Part shown: piece by piece, positions 15,083-49,040 of the stretch
Layout of the letters: each line of letters begins with the position of its first letter
Position numbering within the stretch: position 1 is the stretch's first letter
Made by a program: the position numbers and the translations under genes
Notes under the pieces: model-generated
What the model was told of the DNA's origin: nothing
Seen by the model: the letters and a program-made list of their open reading frames with translations, nothing else
Database searches by the model: none
IMG/VR virus record: IMGVR_UViG_3300027977_002758
Location: 1 to 50,819 of that record
Length of the DNA: 50,819 nt
DNA from: a virus
Reading direction: 5' to 3' (one strand)

Positions 15083-15096
15083 GGTTGTGCAGGACG

Positions 15097-15594: not shown

Positions 15595-15599
15595 ATAGT

Positions 15600-15607: not shown

Positions 15608-15635
15608 CTGCATTATGCATTTTCTACATGTTTTT

Positions 15636-16523: not shown

Positions 16524-16524
16524 G

Positions 16525-21153: not shown

Positions 21154-21596
21154 TAGTACACTTCACCAGAAGAACTAAAGACTGGCTCTACAAACATCAC
21201 ATAAACTCAGAGGTACTCAGAAAAGAGATCTTCAGACTATGCAGGGGCAAGGATGACAACATTCATCCGCGTGTGGTTATTAACGTGAAGAAGTCCGGGC
21301 GCAACAGTGATTTCAATCCATGTGGCAATGTGATTAATATTGGCAGATATTCTGATTCAAACAATCAAAAATTAATTGTGAAGGGGTTTCTCCGAGTTCT
21401 AATTCATGAGATTAGACACTTCATACAATACAAAATACACAAGAGAATTACAAACATAGCTTATACCGATTATGACTTCCGTGAAAATAATCACAGATAT
21501 TTCAATGATCCCTTAGAAATAGATGCCAGGAAATTTGAGAGGAAGCATTTGAATCAATTGCTCAAAAAAATCTACAGCTCTATTGTGTGGCTGTAG
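21150..21596 (+). CDS. Zincin-like protein with HExxH motif
   Basis: 148 residues. LIHEIRHFIQY contains HEIRH, the zinc-binding helix of zincin metallopeptidases. EIDARKFE about 35 residues later could give the third ligand (Glu). The N-terminal part is basic and beta-type. The protein is small for a protease but matches compact phage and toxin-system zincins. The target is unknown. It is coupled by ATGA to the FMN reductase gene and converges on the portal gene, overlapping it by 17 bases. Confidence 0.6.
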   Translation: MIVHFTRRTKDWLYKHHINSEVLRKEIFRLCRGKDDNIHPRVVINVKKSGRNSDFNPCGNVINIGRYSDSNNQKLIVKGFLRVLIHEIRHFIQYKIHKRITNIAYTDYDFRENNHRYFNDPLEIDARKFERKHLNQLLKKIYSSIVWL

Positions 21597-29695: not shown

Positions 29696-31186
29696 ATGTA
29701 TCGTTCATTTAATGATTTCTCCAATTTTACAGCGGCGCTGCCCACTGACAATATCATCATGTTTCGCCCCACAGTGGGCGAATACAAGATCGACTTGTTC
29801 ACAATTTCCAAAGTATTGTCTGGTGGATTGCTGGCCACACCCAATGTTCTGTATGTAACAACAAGTGGCAATGATATCTTTCCAGGAACAAATGAACAGT
29901 TTCCAAAAAGATCAATCAAAGCTGCATGCAAAGTTGCAGCTGATAATCCTTCAACTAAATTTACAATCTTTGTAAGAACAGGTGATTACTATGAAGAGAA
30001 TCCTGTGTATGTGGCAAGCAACACATCATTAATTGGCGACAATTTGAGAAGAACCAGCGTATATCCCAAGAATACAACTTATGATCTGTTTTGGGTAAGC
30101 AATTCTGTTTACATCTGGGGATTCACTTTCAGAGGGCACAAAGGCTATCATACATACGGTACTCCTCCTGTTGCCAGGACACCTGCAGCCATAGCATTTT
30201 ATGACATAGATTCTGTTGATAATCCCTCCATGTATGCAAAAGCATTTTATACTGATCCCAATGGCAACAATCTGAGCCCAGCTGCATATGTAACAATCCC
30301 TGCTTTGAAACCCTTCATTGTGACCAGTCCTTATCCTCAGGGGTGCAGCAGCATAACTTCCTCCACAACTCCTGGCGCCAATGATGCTGGTTGCGGTGTA
30401 AGAATTGATGGCAGCAAGGCACGGGGATTCCTGAGAAGCATGGTGCTGGATTCCTACACTCAATTCAATGAAGGTGGCATAGGTGTGCACATCATTAACA
30501 ATGGATATGCACAATTGGTGAGCACATTCACAATTTGTTGCACAGAAGGCATAAAATGTGAAAGTGGTGGTACATGTTCGATCAACACAAGCAATTGTTC
30601 TTTTGGGTTGTCTGGTTTGGTTGCCATTGGCAAATCTCCTTTTCCTGTTTTGTCTGCTACTCTGTTTGCTGCAAGTTCTGCTAATGATGCATATTTCACC
30701 ATAACAGGCACTGTGTCCAGTGACACTAATGTACCAGTCAAAGAACCATATGTTGGTTTGGTCATGAATCTGTCAGGTGATACCACAGACACCCTGTACA
30801 CTTTCAGCTCTGCAGCTTACATTTCACCTGGCACATACAGAATATTTGTGGATGATGTCATAGTCACCAATGCACCAGCCAACAGAGCAGTTTTCTTCTA
30901 CATAAGAAGTCAGATCTCAACAAGTTCACACACCATGGAATATGTTGGATCTGGAACAGTTCTATCACAAGCAGTGCCAGCACTTGGTGGATTATCCAAA
31001 ACAGAAAATCAGGCTTGTGCAGCAGATGGAGGCAAAGTGTATTTTACTGTGACTGATGAGAAAGGTGATTTTAGAATTGGAAATGATTTGACCATAGTGC
31101 AATCCACTGGAACCATTGAAGGGGATGCATTTGAGAAGTCATTATTTTCACTTGTAACACCATTTGTCATGACCATAGAAGGATAA
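29696..31186 (+). CDS. Tail-associated beta-helix protein
   Basis: 496 residues. After an about 75-residue N-terminal module (FNDFSNFTAALPTDNIIMFR) the segment VLYVTTSGNDIFPGTNEQFP starts a right-handed beta-helix of the pectate-lyase or parallel-repeat type. Repeats around SLIGDNLRRTSVYPKN, IWGFTFRGHKGY, GGIGVHIINNGYAQLV and CESGGTCSINTSNCSFG support this. The C-terminus (GKVYFTVTDEKGDFRIGND) resembles the end of cyanophage baseplate or fibre proteins (recollection). It probably binds or cuts a surface polysaccharide; no catalytic residues can be named. Confidence 0.65.
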   Translation: MYRSFNDFSNFTAALPTDNIIMFRPTVGEYKIDLFTISKVLSGGLLATPNVLYVTTSGNDIFPGTNEQFPKRSIKAACKVAADNPSTKFTIFVRTGDYYEENPVYVASNTSLIGDNLRRTSVYPKNTTYDLFWVSNSVYIWGFTFRGHKGYHTYGTPPVARTPAAIAFYDIDSVDNPSMYAKAFYTDPNGNNLSPAAYVTIPALKPFIVTSPYPQGCSSITSSTTPGANDAGCGVRIDGSKARGFLRSMVLDSYTQFNEGGIGVHIINNGYAQLVSTFTICCTEGIKCESGGTCSINTSNCSFGLSGLVAIGKSPFPVLSATLFAASSANDAYFTITGTVSSDTNVPVKEPYVGLVMNLSGDTTDTLYTFSSAAYISPGTYRIFVDDVIVTNAPANRAVFFYIRSQISTSSHTMEYVGSGTVLSQAVPALGGLSKTENQACAADGGKVYFTVTDEKGDFRIGNDLTIVQSTGTIEGDAFEKSLFSLVTPFVMTIEG

Positions 31187-31189
31187 ATA
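31182..31189 (+). promoter_or_regulatory. Late-promoter-like box GATAAATA
   Basis: GATAAATA, five bases (gtatt) before the ATG at 31195. It lies over the stop codon of the previous gene. Confidence 0.5.
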
Positions 31190-31194
31190 GTATT

Positions 31195-31536
31195 ATGGCA
31201 AAAACGCAATTTAATGTTTTCAAAAGACTGCAGTCAACTCTGGGCATTACTGATGCTGATCTGTACAAAGCACCTGCAGGCAAAGCTGGTATTATTCTGA
31301 CTGCTCAGGCAGCCAACATTGGTGCAGCAACCAAATCAGTCACAATGTCTATATCTGCTTCAGATGGAATAGTTACTGAGCTAGGACAATCAATTGCCAT
31401 ACCAGCCTATGATTCACGCAGTTTAATTCTGGGTAAAATAGTGATGACAGAAGGTGATACACTGCTTGGCAGAGAAGATTCAAGCTCCAATGAAGTTAAG
31501 TTGACCATAGCATTACTAGAAACTGTAAACTCATAA
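31195..31536 (+). CDS. Small virion structural protein, 113 aa
   Basis: Unrecognised family. After a helical N-terminus (FNVFKRLQSTLGITDADLYK) it is a beta-sandwich-like protein with regular hydrophobic strands (KAGIILTAQAANIG, SVTMSISASDGIV, SLILGKIVMTEGDTL). Its place between two fibre genes, with its own late box, suggests a connector or decoration protein. The function is inferred from position only. Confidence 0.55.
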   Translation: MAKTQFNVFKRLQSTLGITDADLYKAPAGKAGIILTAQAANIGAATKSVTMSISASDGIVTELGQSIAIPAYDSRSLILGKIVMTEGDTLLGREDSSSNEVKLTIALLETVNS

Positions 31537-31543
31537 TTTTTAA

Positions 31544-31551
31544 CATAAATA
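31544..31551 (+). promoter_or_regulatory. Late-promoter-like box CATAAATA
   Basis: CATAAATA, four bases before the GTG at 31556. It supports the GTG start. Confidence 0.55.
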
Positions 31552-31555
31552 ACCT

Positions 31556-34396
31556 GTGAATCAGTCACTTGAGTTATTATCGGATCGTGCCCAAGTAGTT
31601 GCACCGTTAAATGTTACTGCTGATAGATATACCTTTCTAGGATTGGATCAAGCTGAGCCCAACCTGGGTGTTGCACCCACATCTGCATATGTGTTAGCAA
31701 CCAATGAATATGGAGTAAGAAGATGGGCACCATTCAATGATGTGGGTGTGGTTGGACCCACTGGACCTACAGGTGCCACTGGTGCCACTGGACCCACTGG
31801 TGACAGATACACCACCATCTCCACTGATACATTTGCCATACCGGTAACTTTTCCCTCGTATCTGCAAATCAATGTGGAGCCGTTGTTGGCTTACATACCT
31901 GCTCACCGCATTCTTGTTGCCTATAATAGTAAAAATTATTTCACAGGCACAGTTGTAGATTACAACAACATTTCGGGATTGATGCAATTGAGTGCACTCA
32001 GTGCAGGTCAAGGATCTGGCACTTACAGCTTCTGGGAAGTGAGTCTTGATGGCTCTGTGGGTGGTCCCCAGGGCTCCACTGGTGCAACTGGTAATCCTGG
32101 ACCAGTTGGTGCGTCATATTTCCCCAATGCAATTTCTTACTACTACATTGAACCATCTACTGCCACAGGCAATGCAATATCAGGCAGTGATCAATATGGC
32201 AGAACACTAACATACAATGCATTGTTACCCAACAATGTGAATGTGTACAAGAATGGATCCAGACTCACCAACAACGTCAGCTTCACAGCCAACGATGGTG
32301 TAAATATTTTGCTAGCCAGCAGTTTGATAGGTTCAGATAAAATTGAAGTGGTAGTAGTTTCTGGTAGCATTGATTTTAATCCTGATATCTTCACCAGAAA
32401 CGATTTGCAAAATTTCCGATACACTGTAGGGTTTGATCCTCTCACTTCCATACCCACTGGTTATTACACAGTGTCAGGATTTGATGATACCAACAGACTC
32501 CTGGCTTACACCCCAGGCAGTATCAGCTTGTATAAAAATGGCTCTCATTTGATTGATACCCTGGATTACACTGCAACAAACGGTTACACCATAACTTTGA
32601 GTGGCCAATTGAACACAACAGATGTTGTGAACGTTCTTGTGTTGAGTGCATTTAATTTTGCCCCTTACAAAGTGTACTATGTGAGTCAAGTTTTGAATTA
32701 CTTCTACACGGTGCCTACAGCTGGCATACCAGTGGGAGCAGTGGCCATAAGTGGTGTTGATACATATGGCAAAACGTTGGATTATTTCCCTCAAGCAGTG
32801 GATGTGTTTGTCAATGGTGTCAATCTGGTCAATGTGGCTGACTTTGCTGCTACAGATGGCAAAAATGTCATATTGAATGTGCCTTTGCTGTATGGTGACA
32901 CCATTCAAATTAAAACATTGAGTGCTTTTGGCACACAGCCAGCTGGCCCCACAGGACCCACTGGTGCAACTGGTGCCACTGGTGGAGAAAGATACAATGC
33001 AACATCATCCTCCACAGTCACCATACCCACAACCATAAACAAATATGTATCCTTTGCTCTGAATGAAACGAATCTTTCCTACATTCCCTCGCAAAGTGTG
33101 CTGGTTTCACATGACCTGTACAACACCATGTATGGTCTCATATATGAGTATTCAACTGCTACCAACACATTGACTGTGTTGGCACTCAGCTCCGTGGGCG
33201 GTGGTGCCACATTCAGCAATTGGGCCATCAATCTCAATGCAGTGGCCGGTCCACGTGGTGCCCAAGGTGACAATGGTGCCACAGGAGCCACAGGTGCCAT
33301 TGGACCCACTGGAGCAACAGGCCCGGTAGCAGGTTCCAACAAGCAATTCATATACAATGCTGCAGGTGCTCCTGCAGGTGCTGCCAATTTAAATTATGAT
33401 GGTGGCTTTGTGGGTGTGGGCATCAGCACACCACAATCATTGTTGCATGTGAGAAACACATCTGCAAAAGCAGGTGGTGCACATATGCTCTTGGAAGCAT
33501 ACTCCACATCTTCAGTGAACAATGATGCAGATGTGGTGTTGATTGAATCCAGAAGAACGGACAGTGCTGCATACAACATTTTAAATGTAAAGAATGCTGC
33601 AGGTGCCAAATTGACTGTGGGTGGCAATGGTGATGTGCGCATTGCAAACAATTTGACTGTTGTGGGCGATCTTACTGCTCTGGGAAATATTTCCTATTTT
33701 GAAACCAAAATAATAACATCCAGTGCTGTGGTCATAGTGAATTCTGGCACGGGGCCTGCATTGTCAGTGACACAAACAGGTGCACAGCCAGTGGCCACTT
33801 TCATAGACAAAGAGTCTGGCCCTGCTCTGCACATTGCTGACACAGGTTTGGTGGGCATAGGACTTTCTGCACCATCTGAAAGATTGACTGTGCTGGGCAA
33901 CATATCTGCTTCCAACACCATAACAGGTGCAACATATGTGTCTGGTGGCCAGGAATTGTTTGGGCTCATCTCTAATTTCATATTGCCAGTGGGTGATGAC
34001 AAAGTGAAACAAACACAAATTGCTGTGTTGTCCACTGCACAAGAATTCACTGCATTCCATGGTGTGAGTGCAACAAAATTGGACAATTCCACAACCTTTG
34101 GTGTGGGTGATGTGTCGGCCAACTGGAATCTGGACACACAACAAGTGGCTATATTCACTTTGAGCAGCTCACCAGTTTATCTGAGGAATCCAACCAACAT
34201 GAGACCCGGTGGCACATACATGTTGATTGTGAAACAAGACAGCACAGGAGGCAGAGTGTTAAACTTCCAGTCCAACTACAAATTCATCAACAATGTTGCA
34301 CCAACTGTCACAACAGCACCATCTGCTGTGGACATCTTCAGCTTTGTGAGTGATGGCAGGTTTCTTTATGGTGTAGGCTCCCAAGGATACATCTAA
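31556..34396 (+). CDS. Long fibre protein with collagen-like segments
   Basis: 946 residues. Four collagen-like Gly-X-Y runs are interspersed with beta domains: near 31747-31803 (GPTGPTGATGATGPTGD), 32064-32112, 32944-32988 and 33250-33330. Between them lie repeated modules with the pattern of VYKNGSRL and VFVNGVNL strands. The last about 300 residues (GFVGVGISTPQSLLHVRNTS, later VGIGLSAPSERLTVLGNIS) resemble the head of S74-linked fibres but lack the SDERLK site. It is probably a trimeric tail fibre. GTG start with a box four bases upstream. It is followed after one base by the next fibre gene. Confidence 0.75.
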   Translation: MNQSLELLSDRAQVVAPLNVTADRYTFLGLDQAEPNLGVAPTSAYVLATNEYGVRRWAPFNDVGVVGPTGPTGATGATGPTGDRYTTISTDTFAIPVTFPSYLQINVEPLLAYIPAHRILVAYNSKNYFTGTVVDYNNISGLMQLSALSAGQGSGTYSFWEVSLDGSVGGPQGSTGATGNPGPVGASYFPNAISYYYIEPSTATGNAISGSDQYGRTLTYNALLPNNVNVYKNGSRLTNNVSFTANDGVNILLASSLIGSDKIEVVVVSGSIDFNPDIFTRNDLQNFRYTVGFDPLTSIPTGYYTVSGFDDTNRLLAYTPGSISLYKNGSHLIDTLDYTATNGYTITLSGQLNTTDVVNVLVLSAFNFAPYKVYYVSQVLNYFYTVPTAGIPVGAVAISGVDTYGKTLDYFPQAVDVFVNGVNLVNVADFAATDGKNVILNVPLLYGDTIQIKTLSAFGTQPAGPTGPTGATGATGGERYNATSSSTVTIPTTINKYVSFALNETNLSYIPSQSVLVSHDLYNTMYGLIYEYSTATNTLTVLALSSVGGGATFSNWAINLNAVAGPRGAQGDNGATGATGAIGPTGATGPVAGSNKQFIYNAAGAPAGAANLNYDGGFVGVGISTPQSLLHVRNTSAKAGGAHMLLEAYSTSSVNNDADVVLIESRRTDSAAYNILNVKNAAGAKLTVGGNGDVRIANNLTVVGDLTALGNISYFETKIITSSAVVIVNSGTGPALSVTQTGAQPVATFIDKESGPALHIADTGLVGIGLSAPSERLTVLGNISASNTITGATYVSGGQELFGLISNFILPVGDDKVKQTQIAVLSTAQEFTAFHGVSATKLDNSTTFGVGDVSANWNLDTQQVAIFTLSSSPVYLRNPTNMRPGGTYMLIVKQDSTGGRVLNFQSNYKFINNVAPTVTTAPSAVDIFSFVSDGRFLYGVGSQGYI

Positions 34397-34397
34397 T

Positions 34398-36917
34398 ATG
34401 TTTCCAGTTTTCCCGGTTGCCTTCAATTCAAGCCAGGCATCTAATGTGGCCAAGTACTCCCTTCGTTTGGCCAGCAGCAATGGTGATGGCACAGGAGCTG
34501 CATCAAATTATTTGTCCAAAACTTTCACAGTGTCTGGTGATTGCAAGAAATGGACTTACAGCACCTGGTACAGACCTGCTGTTTTCACAAGTCACCGACT
34601 ACTGCATGCAGGGTTGGATAACAACAACAGAGTGATAATAAACAACACCACCACTGGTTTGGGTGTGTACTATGTTGCTGCAAGCACCACAACCACTTTG
34701 TTGATGACATCTGCTTATTTCATGGATCCTACCAGCTGGTATCATGTGGTAGTTAGTTTTGATAGCACACAAGCCACTGCATCCAACAGATTAAAATTGT
34801 ATGTTAACAGTGCAGAGCAAAACGAACTCAATGTGGACCAGAGAAGCAGCATCACCAACACCTTTTACTATGTGGGCTCAGCATGCAAGCACCACATTGG
34901 TGCAGACTTGGCCGCCACCTCTTTCAGTGATTGCGCATTGACTGAAACAACCTTTGTGGATGGATTGCAATTGACACCTTCTTACTTTGGTGCATATGAC
35001 AATGGCAACAACACCTGGATACCAAAAAAATACAATGGTAACTTTGGAACCAATGGATTTTATTTGAACTATCAAGATTTTTCCAATGCTGGCAAGGATT
35101 CATCAGACAAAAATAATAATTTTACTGCCAACAACACCAACACAACCAGTCCCTTGTCTTCCATTTTGAATGATTTGACTGTGGATGTGCCAGGCAATTT
35201 TGGTCTTGACACAGGCAAAGGTGGTGAAGTCAGAAGCAATTACTCTGCACTCAATTATTACAACAAACACTCCACAATTTTCATCAGAGATGGTGCGTTG
35301 AGTGCCAGAAGCACCAACATAGCATACTGGAGATCTGCAGTTGCCACCATGGGTGTCAATTATGGCAAATGGTATTGTGAATTTCAATGGGTCTCAGGCA
35401 ACATGGGCAGCAATGGATTGATGATTGGCACCGTGAATGAAACTTTCAGCGCATATGAGCCAAGTGCCACTGTTCCCATTTTATTCCCAGGATTCCTAAC
35501 CAATGGCTATGGTTACTATAGCTTTTACGGAAACATATACAGCAAGGCCATTGGAACAGCATATGGTAATGCATACAACCAAGGTGACATCATAGGCATG
35601 GCCATGGACATTGACAACAGGAAAATATATTTCTCCATAAATGGTGTGTGGCAAAATTCTGGCAATCCAGTGAATGGCGCAAACCCTGCAGCTGTGTTGC
35701 CTGCCACCAGTGGCACCTGGTTCCCTGCCATGGGAATGTACCAGGCACAAGAAGCAACAGTAAACTTTGGTCAGAGGCCATTTGTTTACAATGCCCCTGC
35801 AGGATTCAAATCTTTTTGCACATACAATTTGAGTGAACCTGCAATCAAAGTGCCTGCACAATATTTCAAAGCAGTAGACTATGCAGGTTCCAATTCTTCC
35901 ATCAATGTAAGCACTTCTTCTTTTGCCCCAGATCTGGTGTGGATAAAGAACAGAAGTTCCACCACCAATCATCTGCTCATGGACACCACCCGGGGAGCTG
36001 CATCTGGTCTTGCCAGCAACAGTGCAGCTGCACAAACCAACCTGTACAATTTCAGCTTCTCCAACAATGGTGTGAACATACCCACCGGCAACAACATTTA
36101 CAACAATTTGTTCAACAATTATATTTCCTGGAATTTCAAAGAAGGCAGCTTGCCTGGATTGGATGTGGTGACTTATTTTGGCACAGGGGTGAGCTCATTG
36201 AATGTTGCACATGAACTGGGCAAAGAACCTGGTGTCACCATCATCAAGAATCTGTCTGGCAGCAACACCATATGGTCCATGTGGCACAAGAGCACAGTTG
36301 CACCATTGGGCGGTCTGTATTGGCTCACCCTGAACAACACCAACTCAGCATTCAATGCAGGTGCACCCAATTCACCCAACTCAGTCATAGCTGGCAATCC
36401 ATTAGGCAATACAGCACCCACCAGCACCATGTTCAATGTGGGCAACAATGTGAACCCTGCAGGCTACGGCTTGATTGTGCCCAACAGCATAGGTGGCACC
36501 AACTGGGCTGCACAAAGCACCAATTTAACAGACATACCATACATAGCCTACTTGTTCTCAGAGGTGGATGGGTACTCCAGATTCAATTGTTACACAGGCA
36601 ATGGTGTGTCCAATGATGGTCCCTTTGTGTGGTGTGGGTTCAAACCTGCATTCATCATGGTGAAACACTTTGCAGGCAATGTGGCAGGCAATTGGGCCAT
36701 GTATGACAATGCCAGGTGCAGAGGAAATGCCAACAATTTTGTACTATATGCCAATTTAGCTGCACAGGAAACTGCCTATGGCACCAGTTTGAATGTGGAC
36801 ATACTCAGTAATGGGTTCAAGATCAAAGGGACAGACAACAGCATAAATGCAACAGGCAATGCATATATTTTCTTAGCTTTTGCTGAATTACCTGCTAAGT
36901 ACTCCCTTGCAAAATAA
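34398..36917 (+). CDS. Fibre/adhesin with LamG-like and SPRY-like domains
   Basis: 839 residues. An N-terminal concanavalin/LamG-type domain covers about 10-220 (KWTYSTWYRPAVFTSH, SWYHVVVSFDSTQATASNRL, KLYVNSAEQNEL). A SPRY-like domain lies around 310-460 (GKWYCEFQW, GDIIGMAMDIDNRKIYFSIN). After it come phage-adhesin repeats starting PDLVWIKNRSSTTNHLLMDT. The C-terminus is FLAFAELPAKYSLAK. LamG domains bind glycans, so this is a candidate receptor binder. The ATG follows the stop of the previous gene by one base, so the two are co-translated. Confidence 0.7.
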   Translation: MFPVFPVAFNSSQASNVAKYSLRLASSNGDGTGAASNYLSKTFTVSGDCKKWTYSTWYRPAVFTSHRLLHAGLDNNNRVIINNTTTGLGVYYVAASTTTTLLMTSAYFMDPTSWYHVVVSFDSTQATASNRLKLYVNSAEQNELNVDQRSSITNTFYYVGSACKHHIGADLAATSFSDCALTETTFVDGLQLTPSYFGAYDNGNNTWIPKKYNGNFGTNGFYLNYQDFSNAGKDSSDKNNNFTANNTNTTSPLSSILNDLTVDVPGNFGLDTGKGGEVRSNYSALNYYNKHSTIFIRDGALSARSTNIAYWRSAVATMGVNYGKWYCEFQWVSGNMGSNGLMIGTVNETFSAYEPSATVPILFPGFLTNGYGYYSFYGNIYSKAIGTAYGNAYNQGDIIGMAMDIDNRKIYFSINGVWQNSGNPVNGANPAAVLPATSGTWFPAMGMYQAQEATVNFGQRPFVYNAPAGFKSFCTYNLSEPAIKVPAQYFKAVDYAGSNSSINVSTSSFAPDLVWIKNRSSTTNHLLMDTTRGAASGLASNSAAAQTNLYNFSFSNNGVNIPTGNNIYNNLFNNYISWNFKEGSLPGLDVVTYFGTGVSSLNVAHELGKEPGVTIIKNLSGSNTIWSMWHKSTVAPLGGLYWLTLNNTNSAFNAGAPNSPNSVIAGNPLGNTAPTSTMFNVGNNVNPAGYGLIVPNSIGGTNWAAQSTNLTDIPYIAYLFSEVDGYSRFNCYTGNGVSNDGPFVWCGFKPAFIMVKHFAGNVAGNWAMYDNARCRGNANNFVLYANLAAQETAYGTSLNVDILSNGFKIKGTDNSINATGNAYIFLAFAELPAKYSLAK

Positions 36918-36920
36918 ATA
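36913..36920 (+). promoter_or_regulatory. Late-promoter-like box AATAAATA
   Basis: AATAAATA, four bases before the GTG at 36925. Confidence 0.55.
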
Positions 36921-36924
36921 ACAA

Positions 36925-38808
36925 GTGAGCAAAGCACGCAACATTACGTTCTTGGGATCAGGACCAGGACCAAACAACAGCTTAATTGTTTCTCAAGGAG
37001 TTACAAACAACCCGGCATACAGTGCTTCCAACATTGCAGGGTGGGATGCAACATACACATATGTGAAAGAAAACAGTGGCACTTGGGGTTCCAACTTGTC
37101 AGGTGCACTTGCATTCAGTTCAGTTTCTGCCAAGTATGATTCTGCTTATCAAACATTGTGCAGTTTGAGTGCCAATTGGCAAAGCACTTACACCTCCGTG
37201 AGTGCAAACAGTGCCAACTGGCAATTGTCCTACACAGGTTATGTGACCAACAGCTCCCGATGGGATTCCACTTACACCACCGTGAGTACATACAGTGCAC
37301 AATGGGACAGCAATGCAACCAACTACATAACATACAGTGCCATATATCTGAGTGCCCTGACAACCCTCACTGCCAACAGTGCCAATTGGACCAGTGGCTA
37401 CACAACATTGTGCAGTTCCAGTGGCAACTGGGATTCCACTTACACCACCGTGAGCGCATACAGTGGCACATGGAATGTTACCAATTTATTCAATGAAAAT
37501 AGTGCCACATTCAATTCCGCATATGCCACAGTGAGTGCCTTGAGTGCCAATTGGCAGTCAACTTATGGCACTGTGGGTGCATTGAGTGCAGGATGGCAGA
37601 CTGCATATGTGACAGTGAATGCTGCAAGTGCCAATTGGACCAGCACTTATGATACTGTGAGTGCATTGAGTGCCAATTGGACCAGTGCATATGTGACGGT
37701 GAATGCTTCAAGTGCCATGGCATTCAGTACTGTGGCTACTGTGAGTAGTTTGAGTGCCAACTGGCAGTCAACTTATGGCACCGTCAGTTCACTGAGCGCC
37801 AATTGGCAAAGCACTTATGGTACTGTGAGTAGTTTGAGTGCCAATTGGCAAAGTACTTATGGCACTGTGAGTGCACTGAGTGCTGGTTGGCAGTCAACTT
37901 ATGATACTGTGAGTGCATTGAGCGCCAACTGGCAAAGTACATATGTCACAGTGGGTGAATTGAGTGCCGGTTGGAATGCAGGCACTTCTGTAGCAGCATA
38001 CAGTGCCAATTGGCAAAGCACTTATGACACCGTGAGTGCATTGAGCGCTAATTGGACCAGTGCATATGTGATTTCTAATTCCCTAAGTGCTGGCACCAGT
38101 ACCTTTGGTGTAGTTAGTAGTTTGAGCGCCAATTGGCAAAGCACTTATGGTACTGTGAGTGCATTGAGTGCCAATTGGAATAGCACATATGTGACGGTGA
38201 ATGCTTCAAGTGCCAATTGGAACAGCACATATGTGACTGCAAATGCATTGAGTGCTGGTGGTTTCAGCACTTTTGGCACAGTGAGTTCCTTGAGTGCAGG
38301 CTGGCAAAGTACATATGTGACTGTGAATGCTGCAAGTGCCAATTGGTCTGGTACATATGATGCATTGAACACTCTGAGCGCCGGTTGGCAAACCACTTAT
38401 GGTGCAGTGAGTGCATTGAGTGCCAATTGGCAAAGCACATATGTGACTGTGAACACCAACAGTGCTAGTTGGACAAATCTACTCACAACACAAAGTGCCA
38501 ACTGGCAAAGTGCATTCAGCACCATGACTGCCAGCAGTGCCAACTGGCAAAGCACTTACACCACCGTGAGTGCAAACAGTGCCACATGGAACTTGTTGCC
38601 TTATCTGGCCACCAATTTGATAGTGATGAGTTCTGTGAACATCACCAACACTCTCAATGTGAGCAGTGGCACCATCATCACCAATTCTCTGAGCACCAAT
38701 TCATTGAACTTCACACAATCCTATGGCACTGCAGGTGCACTGGCCAACACATACATCACTGTGAATGTGGCCGGCAGTTCATTAAAAATTCCACTGTACT
38801 ATTTTTAA
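36925..38808 (+). CDS. Fibre shaft protein of 14-residue repeats
   Basis: 627 residues. After a short N-terminal module (ITFLGSGPGPNNSLIVSQG, then YSASNIAGWD) nearly the whole protein is made of about 35 tandem 14-residue units of the form SANWQSTYGTVSAL. W, V and L recur with heptad-like spacing (positions 4, 11 and 14), so an alpha-helical coiled-coil shaft is the likely fold. The end (YITVNVAGSSLKIPLYYF) is shared in pattern with the next protein. GTG start. It probably forms a long thin fibre stalk. Confidence 0.7.
   Translation: MSKARNITFLGSGPGPNNSLIVSQGVTNNPAYSASNIAGWDATYTYVKENSGTWGSNLSGALAFSSVSAKYDSAYQTLCSLSANWQSTYTSVSANSANWQLSYTGYVTNSSRWDSTYTTVSTYSAQWDSNATNYITYSAIYLSALTTLTANSANWTSGYTTLCSSSGNWDSTYTTVSAYSGTWNVTNLFNENSATFNSAYATVSALSANWQSTYGTVGALSAGWQTAYVTVNAASANWTSTYDTVSALSANWTSAYVTVNASSAMAFSTVATVSSLSANWQSTYGTVSSLSANWQSTYGTVSSLSANWQSTYGTVSALSAGWQSTYDTVSALSANWQSTYVTVGELSAGWNAGTSVAAYSANWQSTYDTVSALSANWTSAYVISNSLSAGTSTFGVVSSLSANWQSTYGTVSALSANWNSTYVTVNASSANWNSTYVTANALSAGGFSTFGTVSSLSAGWQSTYVTVNAASANWSGTYDALNTLSAGWQTTYGAVSALSANWQSTYVTVNTNSASWTNLLTTQSANWQSAFSTMTASSANWQSTYTTVSANSATWNLLPYLATNLIVMSSVNITNTLNVSSGTIITNSLSTNSLNFTQSYGTAGALANTYITVNVAGSSLKIPLYYF
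37140..38600 (+). repeat. About 35 tandem 42-bp coding repeats
   Basis: DNA-level tandem repeats with a 42-bp period encode the 14-residue units of the shaft protein. Some neighbouring units (around 37740-37880) are almost identical, which points to recent duplication or gene conversion. Unit lengths of 11 and 13 residues interrupt the series in places. Confidence 0.75.
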
Positions 38809-38810
38809 AC

Positions 38811-41800
38811 ATGAGCAGGTCCTACAATTTACTTAAATTCTCAAGTGGATTAGGACAGAACAACACACTGTTCATATCTGACACTGGCACTGGTGCATTG
38901 GCTTACTCTGCCAGCAACATTGCCAGCTGGAATTCCATGACTGACACTTTCAATCAATGGAAAGACACACTGGTCATATTGGTGAGTGCTTCAACACAAT
39001 TCAGACAAAATTCTGCAAAATATGAAGCCACATATGAAGTGTTGCAACAACTCAGTGCTGCATGGATGTCCACCAACAGCACTGTGCAAATGCTCAGTGT
39101 GTACTGGGACAATGCAAAATATTTGAATTTGAATTATGACAACACTTACAACACAGTGAATGCACTGAGCACTTTCTGGACCTTCCTGGGCCCAGAAGGC
39201 ACCATATACACCATGGTGTACAACAACAGCTCCTACTGGCAAGCAGTTTCAGCATTTTTTGAAACTGCATTGCCATCCATTTACAATGACACCTACACCA
39301 CCCTAAGAACCAACAGTGCCACTTATGTGCAACAAAACACTGCTGCCAAGGTCATTTATGACCGTTACAAGAGCACCAGTGACACTGTGAGTGCTTTGAG
39401 TGCCAATTGGCAGAGCACATATGAAGCAATCAAGCTCCCTGCTACTACTTCAATAGTGCACTACCCTGCACAATTGCATGCCACAGGTCGCAACGATTGG
39501 GGTGAACTCGGATTAGGTGATTATACAAATAGAAACACCTTCACTGCATTGACAGGCAACTGGAGCCAGCTAAGCCCTGGGTATATTCATACAGTAGCAT
39601 TATCTGCAGGTACAAACAAATGGTTTGGTACAGGTGCTAATTATTATCCTGATTTTAGTATAGTTGGATCTTACGGATTGGGAGAGGAGGAAAAATCGAG
39701 TGTATTTGTCCAATTAACAGGTGACTGGAGTCAGATGATCGCCGGCATCAATTTAACAATGGCACAGTCAGCAAATACAACTCAATGGTTTGCAACTGGT
39801 TTTCTTTATGATGGACAGTTTGGAATATATTTTACACCATTAACAGGTAATTGGGATCAGATGGTACTTGGGAAAAACATTGCTAGTAGTATTTACACCA
39901 TGGCCTTATCTGCAGGTACTGACAAATGGTTTGCTACAGGAGAAAACAGTGATGGTCAACTGGGGTTAGGTGATAATACAGGTAGAAATACCTTTGCTGC
40001 ATTGACAGGCAACTGGAGTCAGATGGTTTGTGGTGGCGAGCACACCATGGCCTTGTCTGCAGGTACAACCAAATGGTTTGGTACTGGTAACAATACACCT
40101 GGGTGCTTGGGGTTAGGTGATAATACAAATAGAAATACCTTTGCTGCATTGACAGGCAACTGGAGTCAGATGGTTTGTGGTTATGATTTTTTTGGTACAG
40201 GGTCTACCATGGCCTTATCTGCAGGTACAACCAAATGGTTTGCTACAGGATACAATGAATATGGTCAATTAGGATTGGAAGACAATACAAATAGAAATAC
40301 CTTTACTGCATTGACAGGCAACTGGAGTCAGATGGTTTGTGGTTTTAGAGCTACCATGGCCTTATCTGCAGGTACTAACAAATGGTTTGCTACAGGAGAC
40401 AACAGTAATGGTCAACTGGGATTGGGAGACAATACAAATAGAAACACCTTTACTGCATTGACAGGCAACTGGAGTCAGATGCTTTGTGGTGGTGAGCATA
40501 CCATGGCATTGTCTATATCCGCAAGTGCTATGATTTCTAGCGACAGCGGCAGTTTGAGTGCCTGTGTGCAGAGTGCATATGGCACAGTGAGTGCACTGAG
40601 TGCTGCATGGCAAAGTGCATATGGCACAGTGAGTGCACTGAGTGCTGCATGGCAAGGTGCATATGACATTGCAAATGCATTGAGTGCTCGTGTGCAGAGT
40701 GCACGAGACACAGTTGATGTTCTGAGCGCCAATTGGAACAACACTTATGGTGCAGTGAATGCATTGAGTTCCAATTGGACCAGCACACATGGCACAGTGA
40801 ATGCTGCAAGTGCCAATTGGACCAGCACTTATGGGGCTGTGAATGCATTGAGTTCCAATTGGACCAGCACACATGGCACAGTGAATGCTGCAAGTGCCAA
40901 TTGGCAAAACACTTACACTGTGGTTCAAGCCAACAGCACCACATGGACCCAATCCAACAGTGCCATTGGTGAACTTTATGTGAATTGGACACCCACATAT
41001 GGCACAGTGAATGCTGCAAGTGGCACGTGGCAAGGTGCATATGCAACACTGAGTGCATTGAGTGCCACATTGCCTACCACATATGGCACAGTGGGCGCTT
41101 TGAGCGCCAATTGGAACAGCACATATGGCACAGTGAATGCTGCAAGTGCCACATGGCAGAGCACATATGGCACAGTGAGTGCACTGAGTGCTGCATGGCA
41201 AGGTGCATATGCAACACTGAGTGCCTTGAGTGCACTAATGATCACCACTGGTGACACTGTGAATGCATTGAGTGCCACAGTGCAGAGCACTGTGGCAACA
41301 GTGAGTGCCTTGAGTGCCCGTTGGCAAGGTGCATATGCTACATTAAATGCTTTGCGTAATAACTGGCAAAACACATATGATGCAACCCTTTTAGCAGTGC
41401 CCACTACACAATGGTTTGGCACAGGATTCAATCTCTATGGTCAATTGGGATTGGGCAACACAACTGACAGAAACACATTCACACCATTAACTGGCAATTG
41501 GTCACAGATGACATGTGGTGAAAATTATACTATGGCACTGAGTGCTGGTACCAATGCATTGCTTGGCACAGGATACAACACCCTTGGTCAATTGGGATTG
41601 GGCAACACAACCAATAGAAACACATTCACACCATTAACTGGCAATTGGTCACAGATCATATGCGGTGGCGTCCATACACTGGCACTGAGTGCTGGAACTA
41701 ACCAGTGGTTTGGCACAGGATTCAATCTCTATGGTCAATTGGGATTGGGTGACACATTCAACTTCAACACTTTCACTCAATTGACTGGCAACTGGTCACA

Positions 41801-43904
41801 GATCATATGCGGTGGCTTGCACACCATGGCACTGAGTGCTGGTACCAATGCATTGTTTGGCACAGGTGACAATACATATGGTCAATTAGGATTGGGCAAC
41901 GCAACTGACATAAACACTTTCACTCAATTGCCTGGCAACTGGTCACAGATCACATGCGGTTACGACTACACCATGGCACTGAGTGCTGGTACTAGTAATA
42001 AATGGTTTGGCACAGGATACAATACCAGTGGTAATTTGGGATTGGGCAACACAACTGACAGAAACACATTCACACCATTAACTGGCAATTGGTCACAGAT
42101 CATATGTGGTGACTTTCACACCATGGCACTGAGTGCTGGTACCAATGCATTGTTTGGCACAGGATACAATGGCTTTGGCCAATTAGGATTGGGCAACACA
42201 ACTGACAGAAACACTTTCACTCAATTGACTGGCAACTGGTCACAGATCATAGGCGGTCAATACCATACAATGGCACTGAGTGCTGGTACCAATGCATTGT
42301 TTGGCACAGGATACAATGGCTTTGGCCAATTAGGATTGGGCAACACAACTGACAGAAACACTTTCACTCAATTGACTGGCAACTGGTCACAGATGGTATG
42401 TGGTGGCGTCCATACACTGGCACTGAGTGCTGGTGTTGGCCCAGTGAATGCATGGCAGAGCACATATGGCACTGTGAGTGCATTGAGTGCCGATTGGGGT
42501 CTGAATGCTGCCACTGCCAATGTGAGCAATGCATTTGCCACAGTGCGTGCATCAAGTGCCACATGGCAAAGCACTTATGAAACTGTGAGTGCATTGAGTG
42601 CCACTTGGTCTGTTGCTACCAAATTGAACACCTTGTCCACCACCACCACCACCATTGCAACATTGTCTGTAATTGATAAAATTACAGTGCCTGCATTGAG
42701 CTTCAACAATCCATATGCAGCACAAACATTGGGCTATCGATTTGATGGTACCAACCCAGGCACATCACTTGCACCTGTATCTGGCACTTGGCAAGACATA
42801 GTGGTTGGCACTGGTACCAATGTGTTTGCGCTCTCCAACAACAGGTGGTTTGCAGCAGGTAGCAACAGCAACGGTGAATTGGGACTGGGCCATACAAATT
42901 CAGTCACTTCATTTGTGATGCTAACTGGCAATTGGCAGAGAATAGTAACAGGATATCAAACCAATTTTGCTCTTTCCGGCAACAAATGGTTTGTCACTGG
43001 TGACAATACATATGGTCAAATGGGGTTAAGCATGCCCTTAGTAACCAAATTCAACACTTTCACTGCACTCACTGGAGATTGGATTGATGTTGTACCAGGT
43101 GTATACAAAACGTTTGCACTGTCTGGTGCAAAATGGTTTGCTGCAGGAGAAAATTCTACTGGTGCATTAGGCATAGATCGATTTGGTGGGTCATTCCCAA
43201 GCGCAATATCCAACTTCACCATGTTGACTGGCAATTGGAGTCAAATTAAAGCTGGTGGTACTGATTTTACCTGGGCACTGTCTGCTGGTACCACCCGGTG
43301 GCATGCTGTGGGTACCAATTCTAACGGTGCATTGAGCATCCCCACTGCCCCTGAAACGCAAATATGCACTTTCAGAGCAGTCACTGGCAATTGGTCAGAC
43401 ATACAACCTGCTAACAATGCTGTGTTTGCACTGTCAACCACTGCTGGTACAGCAAAAAAATGGTTTTTCTGTGGTCGCAATGATTGGAATAGTCTTTCAG
43501 CGAGTGGTAATGCTTCACTACCCACATTTTACCGGGAATCAACAGATTGGGATGATGTTTCCTTGGGGGGTGACAATTATTGGCAATCGTTATTCTTATT
43601 GAGTGGGTCAACCTGGTATGTCAGGGGAGTTAATGGCGGAATGTCCAATTGGCCTTTCAACACCACTGCCAAACCCTTGAGTGGTCAAATTGCAAAAATC
43701 TTTAATAAATATGGAGCAGCAGTATTTGCATTTGCACACTCACAGCTGTTCACCTTGAGCACTTGCATCACTGATCAATACACACAATTTGCTGGTGTGT
43801 CCACTGGACTGTTCTTGCCTGTGAGTGTGAACAATGTTGCATACAAAATACCATTGCATTATCCAGGCAGCATTGTGACCATATCATCCATATCGGTGAG
43901 TTAA
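38811..43904 (+). CDS. Giant fibre protein with three RCC1-type propellers
   Basis: 1697 residues from ATG at 38811, two bases after the previous stop; a longer open frame upstream lies inside the previous gene. N-terminal module as in the shaft protein (GLGQNNTLFISDTGTG, YSASNIASWN). Then RCC1-like block 1 (seven units), a run of about 20 fourteen-residue repeats, RCC1 block 2 (seven units), a short linker and RCC1 block 3 (seven diverged units), and a C-terminal VAYKIPLHYPG-type end. Each unit has a core of FGTGYNTLGQLGLG and LTGNWSQ. Seven units per block is the number that closes an RCC1 beta-propeller. Receptor binding is the likely role (inference). Confidence 0.75.
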   Translation: MSRSYNLLKFSSGLGQNNTLFISDTGTGALAYSASNIASWNSMTDTFNQWKDTLVILVSASTQFRQNSAKYEATYEVLQQLSAAWMSTNSTVQMLSVYWDNAKYLNLNYDNTYNTVNALSTFWTFLGPEGTIYTMVYNNSSYWQAVSAFFETALPSIYNDTYTTLRTNSATYVQQNTAAKVIYDRYKSTSDTVSALSANWQSTYEAIKLPATTSIVHYPAQLHATGRNDWGELGLGDYTNRNTFTALTGNWSQLSPGYIHTVALSAGTNKWFGTGANYYPDFSIVGSYGLGEEEKSSVFVQLTGDWSQMIAGINLTMAQSANTTQWFATGFLYDGQFGIYFTPLTGNWDQMVLGKNIASSIYTMALSAGTDKWFATGENSDGQLGLGDNTGRNTFAALTGNWSQMVCGGEHTMALSAGTTKWFGTGNNTPGCLGLGDNTNRNTFAALTGNWSQMVCGYDFFGTGSTMALSAGTTKWFATGYNEYGQLGLEDNTNRNTFTALTGNWSQMVCGFRATMALSAGTNKWFATGDNSNGQLGLGDNTNRNTFTALTGNWSQMLCGGEHTMALSISASAMISSDSGSLSACVQSAYGTVSALSAAWQSAYGTVSALSAAWQGAYDIANALSARVQSARDTVDVLSANWNNTYGAVNALSSNWTSTHGTVNAASANWTSTYGAVNALSSNWTSTHGTVNAASANWQNTYTVVQANSTTWTQSNSAIGELYVNWTPTYGTVNAASGTWQGAYATLSALSATLPTTYGTVGALSANWNSTYGTVNAASATWQSTYGTVSALSAAWQGAYATLSALSALMITTGDTVNALSATVQSTVATVSALSARWQGAYATLNALRNNWQNTYDATLLAVPTTQWFGTGFNLYGQLGLGNTTDRNTFTPLTGNWSQMTCGENYTMALSAGTNALLGTGYNTLGQLGLGNTTNRNTFTPLTGNWSQIICGGVHTLALSAGTNQWFGTGFNLYGQLGLGDTFNFNTFTQLTGNWSQIICGGLHTMALSAGTNALFGTGDNTYGQLGLGNATDINTFTQLPGNWSQITCGYDYTMALSAGTSNKWFGTGYNTSGNLGLGNTTDRNTFTPLTGNWSQIICGDFHTMALSAGTNALFGTGYNGFGQLGLGNTTDRNTFTQLTGNWSQIIGGQYHTMALSAGTNALFGTGYNGFGQLGLGNTTDRNTFTQLTGNWSQMVCGGVHTLALSAGVGPVNAWQSTYGTVSALSADWGLNAATANVSNAFATVRASSATWQSTYETVSALSATWSVATKLNTLSTTTTTIATLSVIDKITVPALSFNNPYAAQTLGYRFDGTNPGTSLAPVSGTWQDIVVGTGTNVFALSNNRWFAAGSNSNGELGLGHTNSVTSFVMLTGNWQRIVTGYQTNFALSGNKWFVTGDNTYGQMGLSMPLVTKFNTFTALTGDWIDVVPGVYKTFALSGAKWFAAGENSTGALGIDRFGGSFPSAISNFTMLTGNWSQIKAGGTDFTWALSAGTTRWHAVGTNSNGALSIPTAPETQICTFRAVTGNWSDIQPANNAVFALSTTAGTAKKWFFCGRNDWNSLSASGNASLPTFYRESTDWDDVSLGGDNYWQSLFLLSGSTWYVRGVNGGMSNWPFNTTAKPLSGQIAKIFNKYGAAVFAFAHSQLFTLSTCITDQYTQFAGVSTGLFLPVSVNNVAYKIPLHYPGSIVTISSISVS
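39475..40520 (+). repeat. RCC1-like block 1 (seven units)
   Basis: Seven units of about 48-52 residues starting with LHATGRNDWGELGLG and ending near YGQLGLE and NGQLGLG units. Codons here are more A/T-rich (for example many aat and aga) than in block 2, and some units are nearly identical at DNA level. Confidence 0.7.
40540..41395 (+). repeat. About 20 tandem 42-bp coding repeats
   Basis: A second array of the 14-residue repeat (SAAWQSAYGTVSAL type), between RCC1 blocks 1 and 2. It would separate the two propellers by a coiled-coil shaft. Confidence 0.7.
41404..42433 (+). repeat. RCC1-like block 2 (seven units)
   Basis: Seven units, e.g. WFGTGFNLYGQLGLG and LFGTGYNGFGQLGLG. Units six and seven share almost the same DNA over more than 100 bases, indicating recent duplication. 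Confidence 0.75.
42729..43750 (+). repeat. RCC1-like block 3 (seven diverged units)
   Basis: Seven diverged units from YRFDGTNPGTSLAPVSG to WYVRGVNGGM. The glycines and tryptophans of the repeat are kept in most but the LGLG core is partly lost. Confidence 0.6.
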
Positions 43905-43905
43905 C

Positions 43906-45360
43906 ATGGCCAGCTTATCTGCATATTTCAGTTACGATGCAAACACGATTGATCGTGGCATACCATATGCACAGTTCACTGCATTTCAATACAACACTGG
44001 TGGCAGCATTTGGTATAATAGAAGTGTCAGACCCACTGGCACCCTGTTTGTTGCTGGAAGAAATAATGTTGGTCAATTGGGGTTAGGAAACAATGTTGAT
44101 ACAAACACATTCATACAATTGACAGGACAATGGGAAGATGTGGCTTGTGGCAGCACATGCATGTTTGCAAAATCAGCTGGCACCAATCGATGGTTTGGCA
44201 CAGGGTATAATAGGTCATTAGGTGCAGGTTTTGACGCAATAAATTATAATACTCTTACACCTTTAACCGGAGAATGGAGGATAATAGTACCTAGCGGTAA
44301 AAACGCCACATTTACCATGGCCATTTCAGCTGGAACTAACACATTGTTTGGCACAGGGGCAAATAATTATGGTCAATTAGGCTTAGGTAACACTACTACA
44401 AGATACACATTCACTGCATTAACTGGCAACTGGAGCAATGTGTTTGTTGGTGGTAATCATACCATGGCATTGTCTGCTGGTACTACCAAGCTATTTGGCA
44501 CAGGGCAATGCGATCCATATGGTCAATTGGGTCTAGGGACTATTTATGGCGATTATAAAACATTCACTCAAGTAGCAGGTGATTGGAGCGATGTAGCATG
44601 TGGGACTGACTTCACAGCTGCACTGTCAGCAGGTACTAATTTTTGGTATGGCTGTGGTGATGCAAGTGATTCACCACTTGGCATGATTTTTAGCAGTTCC
44701 ACTTTTAGAGCACTAACAATTCACGGGATTGGAGCTCCAAAATTCAGCAAGATGTTTTGTGGGGCTTATAATTCTTTTGGATTATCTGCAGGCACAACAA
44801 AATTATATGGTTCAGGATACAATGGCTATGGTACTCTTGGTACTGGCAACAATAAAACACAAGATGCGTTTATACAAATACCAGGCAACTGGCTTGATGT
44901 GTATTGTGGTACCGTGATGATATTGGCTCTGTCTACAAAAAACAATAAACTGTTTGTTACAGGAAGTAACACTTACGGTCAATTTGGCATAGGCAACAAC
45001 TCCTACAGTTACAGCTTTATTGATACAAACAGTTATATCACCAAAGCAGGTGGTGGTACTAATTTCACTGCAATACTGCAAGCTAATAACTTCACATCTC
45101 CGTTGGTTGTGGATAATTTTGAAAACCAACCCATCACTTTCAAAATGAGACCCATCACCAACTCAGGTGTCACTGGCTCAGAGGCATCATTCTTTCACAA
45201 TCCACCACCGGTATTGTTTGGCACCGGAGACAATTTTTATGGCACATTGGGACTGGGCAACAGTGGTGCAGGTACTGACAGAAACACATTCACTGCACTC
45301 ACCGGCAATTGGAGTCAAATGGCACTTGGTCAATATCACACCATGGCAATTGGGTATTAG
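43906..45360 (+). CDS. Fibre/adhesin with one RCC1-type propeller plus an extra unit
   Basis: 484 residues. An about 40-residue N-terminal module (FSYDANTIDRGIPYAQFTAF) precedes seven RCC1-like units (LFVAGRNNVGQLGLG to LFVTGSNTYGQFGIG). A non-repeat linker follows, then an eighth lone unit VLFGTGDNFYGTLGLG that stops at the end of its first half (HTMAIGY). The abrupt end could be a truncated longer fibre or a strand that completes the ring. The gene starts one base after the previous stop. It ends a chain of fibre genes. Confidence 0.7.
   Translation: MASLSAYFSYDANTIDRGIPYAQFTAFQYNTGGSIWYNRSVRPTGTLFVAGRNNVGQLGLGNNVDTNTFIQLTGQWEDVACGSTCMFAKSAGTNRWFGTGYNRSLGAGFDAINYNTLTPLTGEWRIIVPSGKNATFTMAISAGTNTLFGTGANNYGQLGLGNTTTRYTFTALTGNWSNVFVGGNHTMALSAGTTKLFGTGQCDPYGQLGLGTIYGDYKTFTQVAGDWSDVACGTDFTAALSAGTNFWYGCGDASDSPLGMIFSSSTFRALTIHGIGAPKFSKMFCGAYNSFGLSAGTTKLYGSGYNGYGTLGTGNNKTQDAFIQIPGNWLDVYCGTVMILALSTKNNKLFVTGSNTYGQFGIGNNSYSYSFIDTNSYITKAGGGTNFTAILQANNFTSPLVVDNFENQPITFKMRPITNSGVTGSEASFFHNPPPVLFGTGDNFYGTLGLGNSGAGTDRNTFTALTGNWSQMALGQYHTMAIGY
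44035..45350 (+). repeat. RCC1-like block 4 (seven units plus one)
   Basis: Units are more diverged than in block 2, but the pattern of FGTG, LGLG, LTGNW and a final hydrophobic ALSAGT is retained. The eighth unit, around 45215-45357, is separated by a non-repeat linker. Confidence 0.65.
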
Positions 45361-47705: not shown

Positions 47706-47907
47706 TTTTTTTCTTTTTCCTGTTTATCTTTATTTTTACCAGAGTGGTTTCACCAGGAGCCACACCTGCAGGTCCTGACCCCTTGAATCCGCTGGGAGTG
47801 ACACCACCAAAATTCATGTTGGGACCTGTGCCCATGCCTGGTCTTTCAAAGTTGCCACCATCCAGCTGTTCCAGTATTTTTTTATAATTTGCGTTAAACT
47901 TTTGCAT
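47698..47907 (-). CDS. Small Gly/Pro-rich basic protein, 69 aa
   Basis: Unrecognised. A helical N-terminus (MQKFNANYKKILEQLDGG) leads to a Gly/Pro/Asn-rich middle and a lysine-rich end (VKIKINRKKKKTT). It starts at the ATG overlapping the TAA of the collar-fibre gene (TAATG), so it is translationally coupled to it and might be a fibre-assembly accessory (inference). Confidence 0.55.
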   Translation of the reverse strand: MQKFNANYKKILEQLDGGNFERPGMGTGPNMNFGGVTPSGFKGSGPAGVAPGETTLVKIKINRKKKKTT

Positions 47908-49040
47908 CAGATTTTTATTATTTTGTTGACCACCACAGAAGGTTGCATGCTGCTGTGAGGTTGACTGCCACCAGCAAAGCCTGTGGTTCTGCTGGCAGTG
48001 TTGGTTCTTTGCCCACCTGCTATGTATCTGTTGTTGCCTGTCAAATCATCATACACTATGTTGGCATCATTGGTGTGTGCATGTGAAGGTATTTCTTCCA
48101 CAGACAGCAGATGATTCTCATTACCACCAGAACTGCCCACTGTGTTGCCCAAGGTTGCTGTGCCAACACCACCTGCACCTACCGTGACTCTGCGTCTCAA
48201 GTCTGGCAGATTGAATGTGGTGGAGCCATTGCCAGCACCATATGTGGTGCCAATCACACCAAACAAAGTTGCATATGTGTTTCTGCTCACTGCACTGCCA
48301 TCACAAATCAGATAACCACTGGGTGCAGCAGCACCAGCAAAATCCAACAATGCACCTGCAGGCACAATTATGTCCACACTGCCCCCTGCTCCATACATGT
48401 AGCCAGCCAGAATAGTTGCCAAGGTGGACAATGGAATATCCGATGGAGTGCCCACAGTGCCCAGTCTGCCTTTGAGTGTGTCACCTGCCATGGTGGCCAG
48501 TTTGTTGTTTGTCACACCATTGGTAGTGAGTGTGAGTATGTTGCCAGAGAAAGTAAATTCAGGTGCCGGTGTGGCAATTTGAATCTGAGATCCACTGTCC
48601 ACCAGCTCCAACCCCCTGCCTATGTTGGTGACATCAAAATATGTAAAATCCAAGGAACCTTGCTTCACACTCAACACATTGCTGAAATTGCCTATGGTGA
48701 TGCCATCAGCAGCCAAGTTGGATCCAAATGATCTCCAATTGTCCTTGTATTGGTACAGAGTGCCAGTCAATGTCCACAACAGATTGGAATTCATGTCAAA
48801 CACCACATCACCAATTTCAGGACCTGACAAAGGATTCACATATGTGTTGTTGCCAATGAAAGTTGTGAATCCCAGGTTTCTCATGCCCACTGCATTGCCA
48901 CCCATTTGCGAGTTGTCACCCACATACAATCTTTTGGTGTCTATGGTATACGCAGGTTCACCTGCCCACAGAGCAATGGTCTTTCTCTCCGAATCATTAC
49001 CTCTTCTGACTAATATTCTGGTGATTGGATCTAAGGGCAT
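47907..49040 (-). CDS. Short tail fibre with tail-collar domain
   Basis: 377 residues. The N-terminal module (PLDPITRILVRRGNDSERKT, TKRLYVGDN) is of the type found at fibre attachment ends. The C-terminal domain is a Phage Tail Collar: APSGYLICDGSAVSRNTYAT, LFGVIGTTYGAGNGSTTFNL, PDLRRRVTVG, then IPSHAHTNDAN and a distal His-containing tail. T4 gp12 uses the same fold for irreversible adsorption with metal binding. Two histidines in PSHAH are candidate metal ligands. An AATAAATA box precedes the ATG by six bases. Confidence 0.85.
   Translation of the reverse strand: MPLDPITRILVRRGNDSERKTIALWAGEPAYTIDTKRLYVGDNSQMGGNAVGMRNLGFTTFIGNNTYVNPLSGPEIGDVVFDMNSNLLWTLTGTLYQYKDNWRSFGSNLAADGITIGNFSNVLSVKQGSLDFTYFDVTNIGRGLELVDSGSQIQIATPAPEFTFSGNILTLTTNGVTNNKLATMAGDTLKGRLGTVGTPSDIPLSTLATILAGYMYGAGGSVDIIVPAGALLDFAGAAAPSGYLICDGSAVSRNTYATLFGVIGTTYGAGNGSTTFNLPDLRRRVTVGAGGVGTATLGNTVGSSGGNENHLLSVEEIPSHAHTNDANIVYDDLTGNNRYIAGGQRTNTASRTTGFAGGSQPHSSMQPSVVVNKIIKI

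Follow-up and report, generated by a model that had tools for sequence, protein, structure and literature searches.

RCC1-type propellers in the tail-fibre genes of a T4-like phage: predicted interchangeable host-recognition heads

In eukaryotes, the RCC1, UVR8 and HERC RCC1-like domains (PF00415, PF25390) belong to a Ran exchange factor, a UV receptor or a part of a ubiquitin ligase, and in UVR8 and RPGR the RCC1 fold is used for protein-protein contacts. RCC1 repeats are already known in phages, where they are filed as "chromosome condensation" DNA proteins or as BNR repeats: they occur in phAPEC6, LIBA6276, Brevibacillus phage Jenst and the Synechococcus phages S-SRM01 and BUCT-ZZ01, several of them in tail-fibre clusters. 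The three RCC1 families of PHROGs (7220, 16766 and 4219) are all placed under DNA, RNA and nucleotide metabolism, a filing that probably follows from the name of the eukaryotic founder alone; their fibre context suggests the tail category. When a GenBank-derived collection was searched with the giant fibre described below, 18 phage records matched, and some of the adjoining genes are annotated as tail fibre. The RCC1 gene of the C. difficile phage LIBA6276 comes after an annotated tail fibre gene, with another a short way downstream, and that of BUCT-ZZ01 lies near one. A preliminary description of the present sequence had called RCC1-like propellers unusual as phage adhesion modules; given the three families and the 18 matching records, this is only partly right. 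The papers that we searched do not describe them as exchangeable fibre domains, and the open literature (most subscription journals lay outside the search) yielded no paper on RCC1 rings as fibre adhesins. Matches in the literature on the Rhodobacter gene transfer agent were locus tags (rcc1083/rcc1086), and those in the prasinovirus literature were culture-collection numbers; neither refers to RCC1 repeats.

The Ig-like domains of phage structural proteins are accessory, and they come and go inside or at the ends of the virion proteins of related phages. The propellers reported here show the same pattern of gain and loss, but the Ig fold is a different one and has no multi-bladed ring with a variable face. 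Fibre-borne propellers that serve as binding domains have been described in the receptor-binding protein of phage phi11 (PMC4901313) and in the eBAP3 fibres of eCIS (PMC12923769). The present locus shares this arrangement, with binding predicted, although the phi11 and eBAP3 propellers belong to families other than RCC1; RCC1 is not mentioned in the eCIS catalogue (PMC12923769).

The DNA analysed here, referred to as the window, is the whole 50,819 nucleotides of the IMG/VR virus record IMGVR_UViG_3300027977_002758. This 50.8-kb record carries T4-like genes (a portal and a tail sheath stabiliser) and, downstream of them, a run of fibre genes, in which two adjacent genes contain four blocks of RCC1 repeats (Table 1). 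We consider it probable that RCC1 propellers on fibres are interchangeable host-recognition heads, and the following paragraphs set out the observations on which this prediction is based.

Table 1. Features of the window that bear on the RCC1 propellers (positions are those of the window; aa, residues of the protein concerned)
Feature	Position	Strand	Remark
Portal, phrog_213	21580-23382	minus	T4-like
Tail sheath stabiliser	28226-29044		T4-like
Run of fibre genes	29696-45360		downstream of the T4-like genes
946-aa fibre gene	31556-34396
C-terminal socket domain of 946-aa fibre	34055-34372	+	empty; same domain as the propeller-bearing socket in L010/L066/L069
LamG + SPRY + DUF7483 fibre protein, 839 aa	34398-36917	+	DUF7483 intact
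627-aa fibre, paralogue of giant fibre	36925-38808	+	same ends, 14-aa repeats, no propeller
Giant fibre gene, 1697 aa	38811-43904	+	start ATG 38811
N-terminal anchor of giant fibre, aa 1-42	38811-38936	+	common to 627-aa fibre (45% identity over 42 aa, E 1e-11)
RCC1 propeller block 1, aa 221-570	39471-40520	+	seven repeats, some irregular (blade HMM)
Shaft 2 of giant fibre, aa 573-860	40521-41408	+	14-aa (42-bp) repeats, coiled-coil-like
RCC1 propeller block 2, aa 867-1210	41409-42440	+	seven near-regular 49-aa repeats (blade HMM)
RCC1 propeller block 3, aa 1303-1645	42717-43745	+	degenerate
C-terminal strand of giant fibre	43746-43901	+	common to 627-aa fibre (KIPLHY / KIPLYY)
Next gene after giant fibre, 484 aa	43906-45360	+	one RCC1 propeller, no shaft, no shared anchor
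RCC1 units 1-7 of next gene, about aa 46-394	44041-45075	+
Eighth RCC1 unit of next gene, aa 437-484	45214-45357	+	after a 46-aa spacer

The start of the giant fibre gene is the ATG and not a TTG upstream of it at 38469, which overlaps the previous gene. An independent contig, 3300028581_003582, is 99.99% identical to window positions 11583-40819, a span that takes in block 1 of the giant fibre; among the four RCC1 blocks, this second assembly supports block 1 only. A contig with a 100% identical portal and a 59% propeller match was first read as a swap. It proved to be the same virus: the contig is broken inside the shaft repeats, and block 2 had been compared with block 1. Elsewhere in the window, a long gene run lies on the minus strand (7368-17295), and eight of the ten genes scanned there against PHROGs gave no match. 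A predicted glycosyltransferase and a Nol-like carbamoyltransferase (1522-2607 and 5776-7218) are possible surface or DNA modification genes, and a tail-collar/short tail fibre gene (47907-49040, minus strand) is found past the lysis genes, on the strand opposite to the fibre cluster.

It is close to certain that the four blocks belong to the RCC1 family and have its fold. In Pfam, the giant fibre matches PF25390 (RCC1-like domain; E 1.4e-93, 314.6 bits against a cut-off of 150) and, in 13 stretches, PF00415 (E 6.5e-63); the next gene matches PF00415 (E 3.8e-27, 95 bits against 21.7) and falls slightly under the cut-off of 150 for PF25390 (E 3e-41, 142.4 bits). A scan of the whole window gave 18 PF00415 matches, all within 39471-45351. 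By sequence, the closest solved relatives in the PDB are UVR8, HERC1, RPGR and RCC1. AlphaFold2 models of the next gene and of block 3, built on alignments of 13-14 propellers from phages, have middling confidence (mean pLDDT 72 and 64, respectively), and Foldseek leads from both to UVR8, RCC1, HERC and RPGR domains (best E 2.1e-25 and 2.9e-17). The window domains share with their eukaryotic counterparts the repeat of about 50 residues, the seven blades, the repeat cores and the fold found by Foldseek, and they differ in that they are parts of phage fibre proteins. Profiles, sequence matches in the PDB and structural matches agree with the RCC1-type repeats that the preliminary description had read in adjacent fibre genes; the FGTG and LGLG cores and the LTGNWSQ stretch are present as it claimed, and the comparison with PF00415 that it proposed gave a match above the cut-off in both genes. 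The proposed structure prediction favours an RCC1/UVR8-like fold for block 3 and the next gene at the pLDDT values given above, the closure of the next gene's ring being dependent on the alignment. A Pfam match of a shaft to MINT_RAM7 was far under its cut-off and was put down to chance composition.

A hand count had earlier given seven repeats in each of the four blocks. Counted with a blade HMM, block 1 and block 2 each contain exactly seven. In block 3, the HMM finds six over aa 1319-1588 (the first unit is degenerate and lacks its first strand, and a degenerate last unit is missed), and seven strand groups are seen only in the AlphaFold2 model. The next gene has eight units, the eighth of which is most like the blades of other phages (80% identity to a blade of L058). 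In the model of this gene, aa 365-456 are unstructured, and blade 7 consists of half of unit 7 completed by the second half of unit 8, a pairing that the supplied alignment favoured. In ten related viral contigs (L009, L010, L015, L058, L060, L061, L065, L066, L068 and L069), all complete propellers are seven-bladed; among isolates, S-SRM01 has seven blade units, Jenst gp51 seven and BUCT-ZZ01 14, and LIBA6276, which like the giant fibre carries several propellers in one protein, has 24 detected units with its propellers in a row. By these counts in relatives and isolates, seven blades are a real constraint and not a matter of chance. At the DNA level, the mean identity among blades is 83% in block 2 and 72% in block 1, and 65% between blocks 1 and 2. 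Because blades are more alike within a block than between blocks, each ring has been amplified or homogenised separately.

These propellers are very likely located in tail-fibre proteins of a T4-like phage. Tail-fibre PHROGs match the genes neighbouring the giant fibre, and the giant fibre itself has both the fibre-gene context and the shared attachment end that characterise tail-fibre receptor-binding proteins. Its C-terminal strand aligns with that of the 627-aa fibre with a score of 45 (shuffle mean 24; 0 of 1000 shuffles as high), and in both proteins 14-aa repeats lie between the shared ends. In the giant fibre, blocks 1 and 2 are set into the shaft repeats and not into a socket loop of the kind described below, and block 3 directly precedes the shared C-terminal strand; the left junction of block 3 is not significant (p 0.07). 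Shafts of coiled-coil type had been proposed between the blocks. For shaft 2 this is borne out by a strong hydrophobic periodicity of 3.5 residues (power 10.2 vs 1.43 in the best of 500 shuffles), whereas the same periodicity in shafts 1 and 3 is not significant by the shuffle test.

In phage blades from outside the window, positions 38, 37, 8 and 6 vary most, followed by 19 and 9. Positions 6, 8, 19, 37 and 38 were chosen on these blades and then examined in the window blocks as a hold-out. In block 1, the nonsynonymous and synonymous codon differences number 87 and 2 at these positions and 232 and 195 elsewhere; in block 2 they number 78 and 3, and 129 and 130 elsewhere. Blade pairs are not independent of one another, and these figures are counts and not probabilities. 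Blade positions 6, 8, 9, 37 and 38 align with W198, R200, Y201, W233 and R234 of UVR8 (numbered through an offset of 12). In the UVR8 dimer, a protein-protein contact of the RCC1 fold, W198 and W233 are interfacial tryptophans and R200 is an interfacial salt-bridge arginine (PMC8748919). This alignment places the variable residues on a face with known contacts in a relative. The GWRHT motif of UVR8 (interfacial Trp/Arg) is not found at the aligned sites: these tryptophan and arginine positions, conserved in UVR8, are the most variable of the phage blade and hypervariable in the window. It is well supported, from codon comparisons, that the variable positions form a putative binding surface, since change there is nearly all nonsynonymous, as a binding surface would lead one to expect. 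Variable loops could also come from rapid turnover of blades through unequal recombination.

The exchange of whole propellers is seen most clearly in a related fibre family. The fibres of the related contigs L010, L066 and L069 carry an RCC1 ring in a C-terminal domain, between ...DYVF and (I/V)TVIRF, and the 946-aa fibre of the window ends in the same domain without the ring (E 1e-11 to 1e-15, with the relatives' ring left out of the comparison). Relative to L010, the flanking DNA of L074 is 90% identical over 4.75 kb on the left and 94% identical over 3.1 kb on the right, and one C-terminal loop holds RCC1 in L010 and an unrelated repeat domain in L074. This insert has six clear units, perhaps seven, of a repeat of about 41 aa with ST(D/N)xGxSW-like motifs; its sole profile match, to the glycosylhydrolase family NF045728 (5e-6), lies under the threshold, and we call it Asp-box-like by motif. 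Comparing propellers between related phages, as had been recommended, thus revealed an RCC1 plug and an unrelated repeat plug between flanks of 90-94% identity.

The gap between two conserved motifs of the socket was then sized across 16 loci. It is 39-48 aa where the socket is empty (L077, L093/94 and L097-L103), 398-410 aa where it holds RCC1 (L084, L088 and L092) and 350-361 aa where it holds an Asp-box-like domain (L091, L095 and L096). In a tree of the flanks, RCC1 sockets stand beside Asp-box-like ones in one group and beside empty ones in another, and the well-supported branches require no fewer than two changes for RCC1 and likewise two or more for the empty state. Wherever both flanks are comparable in this socket family, the propeller diverges more than they do; between L010 and L066, the identity is 82% in the left flank, 65% in the ring and 93% in the right flank. 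A ring is inserted in another fibre family too: in L009 it splits the DUF7483 domain of a LamG/SPRY fibre (the profile is matched at 9-86 ahead of the ring and at 122-330 behind it), and in the homologous 839-aa fibre of the window the DUF7483 profile runs unbroken from 2 to 330. In L097-L101, which belong to the socket family, the C-terminal socket is empty and other large inserts lie upstream (Asp-box-like repeats in L097), possibly at a second insertion site.

In other words, the exchange of the propeller as a unit is observed in the related fibre family, where one site is empty or filled by RCC1 or by another domain. The giant fibre did not show such a series: among the viral contigs searched, no second strain of it with different heads was found, and the next gene, block 3 and the N-terminus of the giant fibre had no relatives there beyond the same virus. 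In genome contigs, no cellular relatives were confirmed. The idea of swappable heads put forward in the preliminary description therefore draws its support from the fixed loop of the relatives, and for the giant fibre itself we infer exchange.

A seven-bladed ring would close on itself with its two ends adjacent, and a loop, or the space between two shaft segments, could accommodate it and leave the host protein undisturbed. The insertion pattern suggests that the propeller moves between fibre genes as a closed ring. With variable residues 6, 8, 9, 37 and 38 contributed by each blade, a ring would present about 35 variable positions, on a face resembling that of the UVR8 dimer, which would most likely bind a host-surface molecule, probably a glycan or a surface protein. 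Receptor binding by the RCC1 propellers is a prediction; with three rings on the long fibre and a fourth in the gene that follows, one fibre would have several putative binding sites along it.

The alternative that survives best, although we think it unlikely, is that the propellers are no receptor-binding heads but serve as structural spacers, stabilise the fibre or act as protein-protein adaptors for other fibre or chaperone proteins. Three of them are indeed embedded in a shaft or placed at its end, and a variable face could follow a variable phage partner, as the fold serves protein-protein contacts. Against this, relatives lack the plug at the same socket, which suggests that it is dispensable for assembly there, and both the concentration of change on one face and the substitution by a different repeat family argue for a recognition head over a structural part. 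Somewhat less likely again is that the propellers are generalist stickers for mucus, extracellular polysaccharide or particles, which would enrich the phage near hosts without any choice of host. The Ig-like domains of phage capsids, which have been credited with such a role, offer a parallel; the many copies per fibre and a variable face rich in tyrosine, serine and asparagine would suit weak multivalent binding. However, phages that are nearly identical differ sharply here, as is more usual where a specific host is recognised.

We regard it as very improbable that these RCC1 proteins act on DNA and order the packaged genome, as the database names and the PHROGs category of the matching families imply, and as the phAPEC6 paper (PMC7247149) suggests for that phage's eleven RCC1-like proteins, to which it gives a part in an ordered DNA structure. 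The name derives from the eukaryotic founder, and the phAPEC6 proposal was inferred from the name. In the window and its relatives, the propellers share polypeptides with fibre anchors, shafts and LamG/SPRY/DUF7483 domains within a fibre gene cluster. Finally, Y, S, N, D and G abound at the variable positions, where the third codon base is T or C in 78% of cases (54% elsewhere), as a diversity-generating retroelement might leave them. Such an origin is scarcely credible, as whole domains differ between relatives and a reverse transcriptase was found neither in the window record nor in any of nine related ones; the records are fragments, which makes this absence incomplete.

The reading of the propellers as exchangeable recognition heads can be extended to a broader proposal, to which we give an even chance. 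A fixed loop in a common C-terminal fibre domain would be a general propeller socket that takes an RCC1 ring, an Asp-box-like ring or none; each ring would have a hypervariable face built from its blades; host recognition would evolve at two levels, by ring swapping and by blade shuffling and mutation; rings would have multiplied along the window fibre; and most phage genes named "regulator of chromosome condensation" would be adhesins. If this is true, the "chromosome condensation" annotation in phages would become a testable class of adhesins. Natural phage pairs whose main difference is the plug in a single fibre gene would allow the propeller-host link to be tested directly, and the socket and the predicted face name the loop and the residues of interest.

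Several related contigs show further arrangements of RCC1 rings. In L015, L058, L060 and L061, whose contigs carry T4-like portals, Thr/Pro-rich (TPTxTPS) linkers, and not shafts of 14-aa repeats, precede or follow the rings. In the record of L068 (G016), the portal gene (1482-2867) contains one in-frame TAG; TAG recoding or an error in the sequence could explain it. In L065 (5282-9334 of contig IMGVR_UViG_3300047561_001935), a subtilase (PF00082, 6e-29) and a seven-bladed RCC1 ring are fused in one viral protein.
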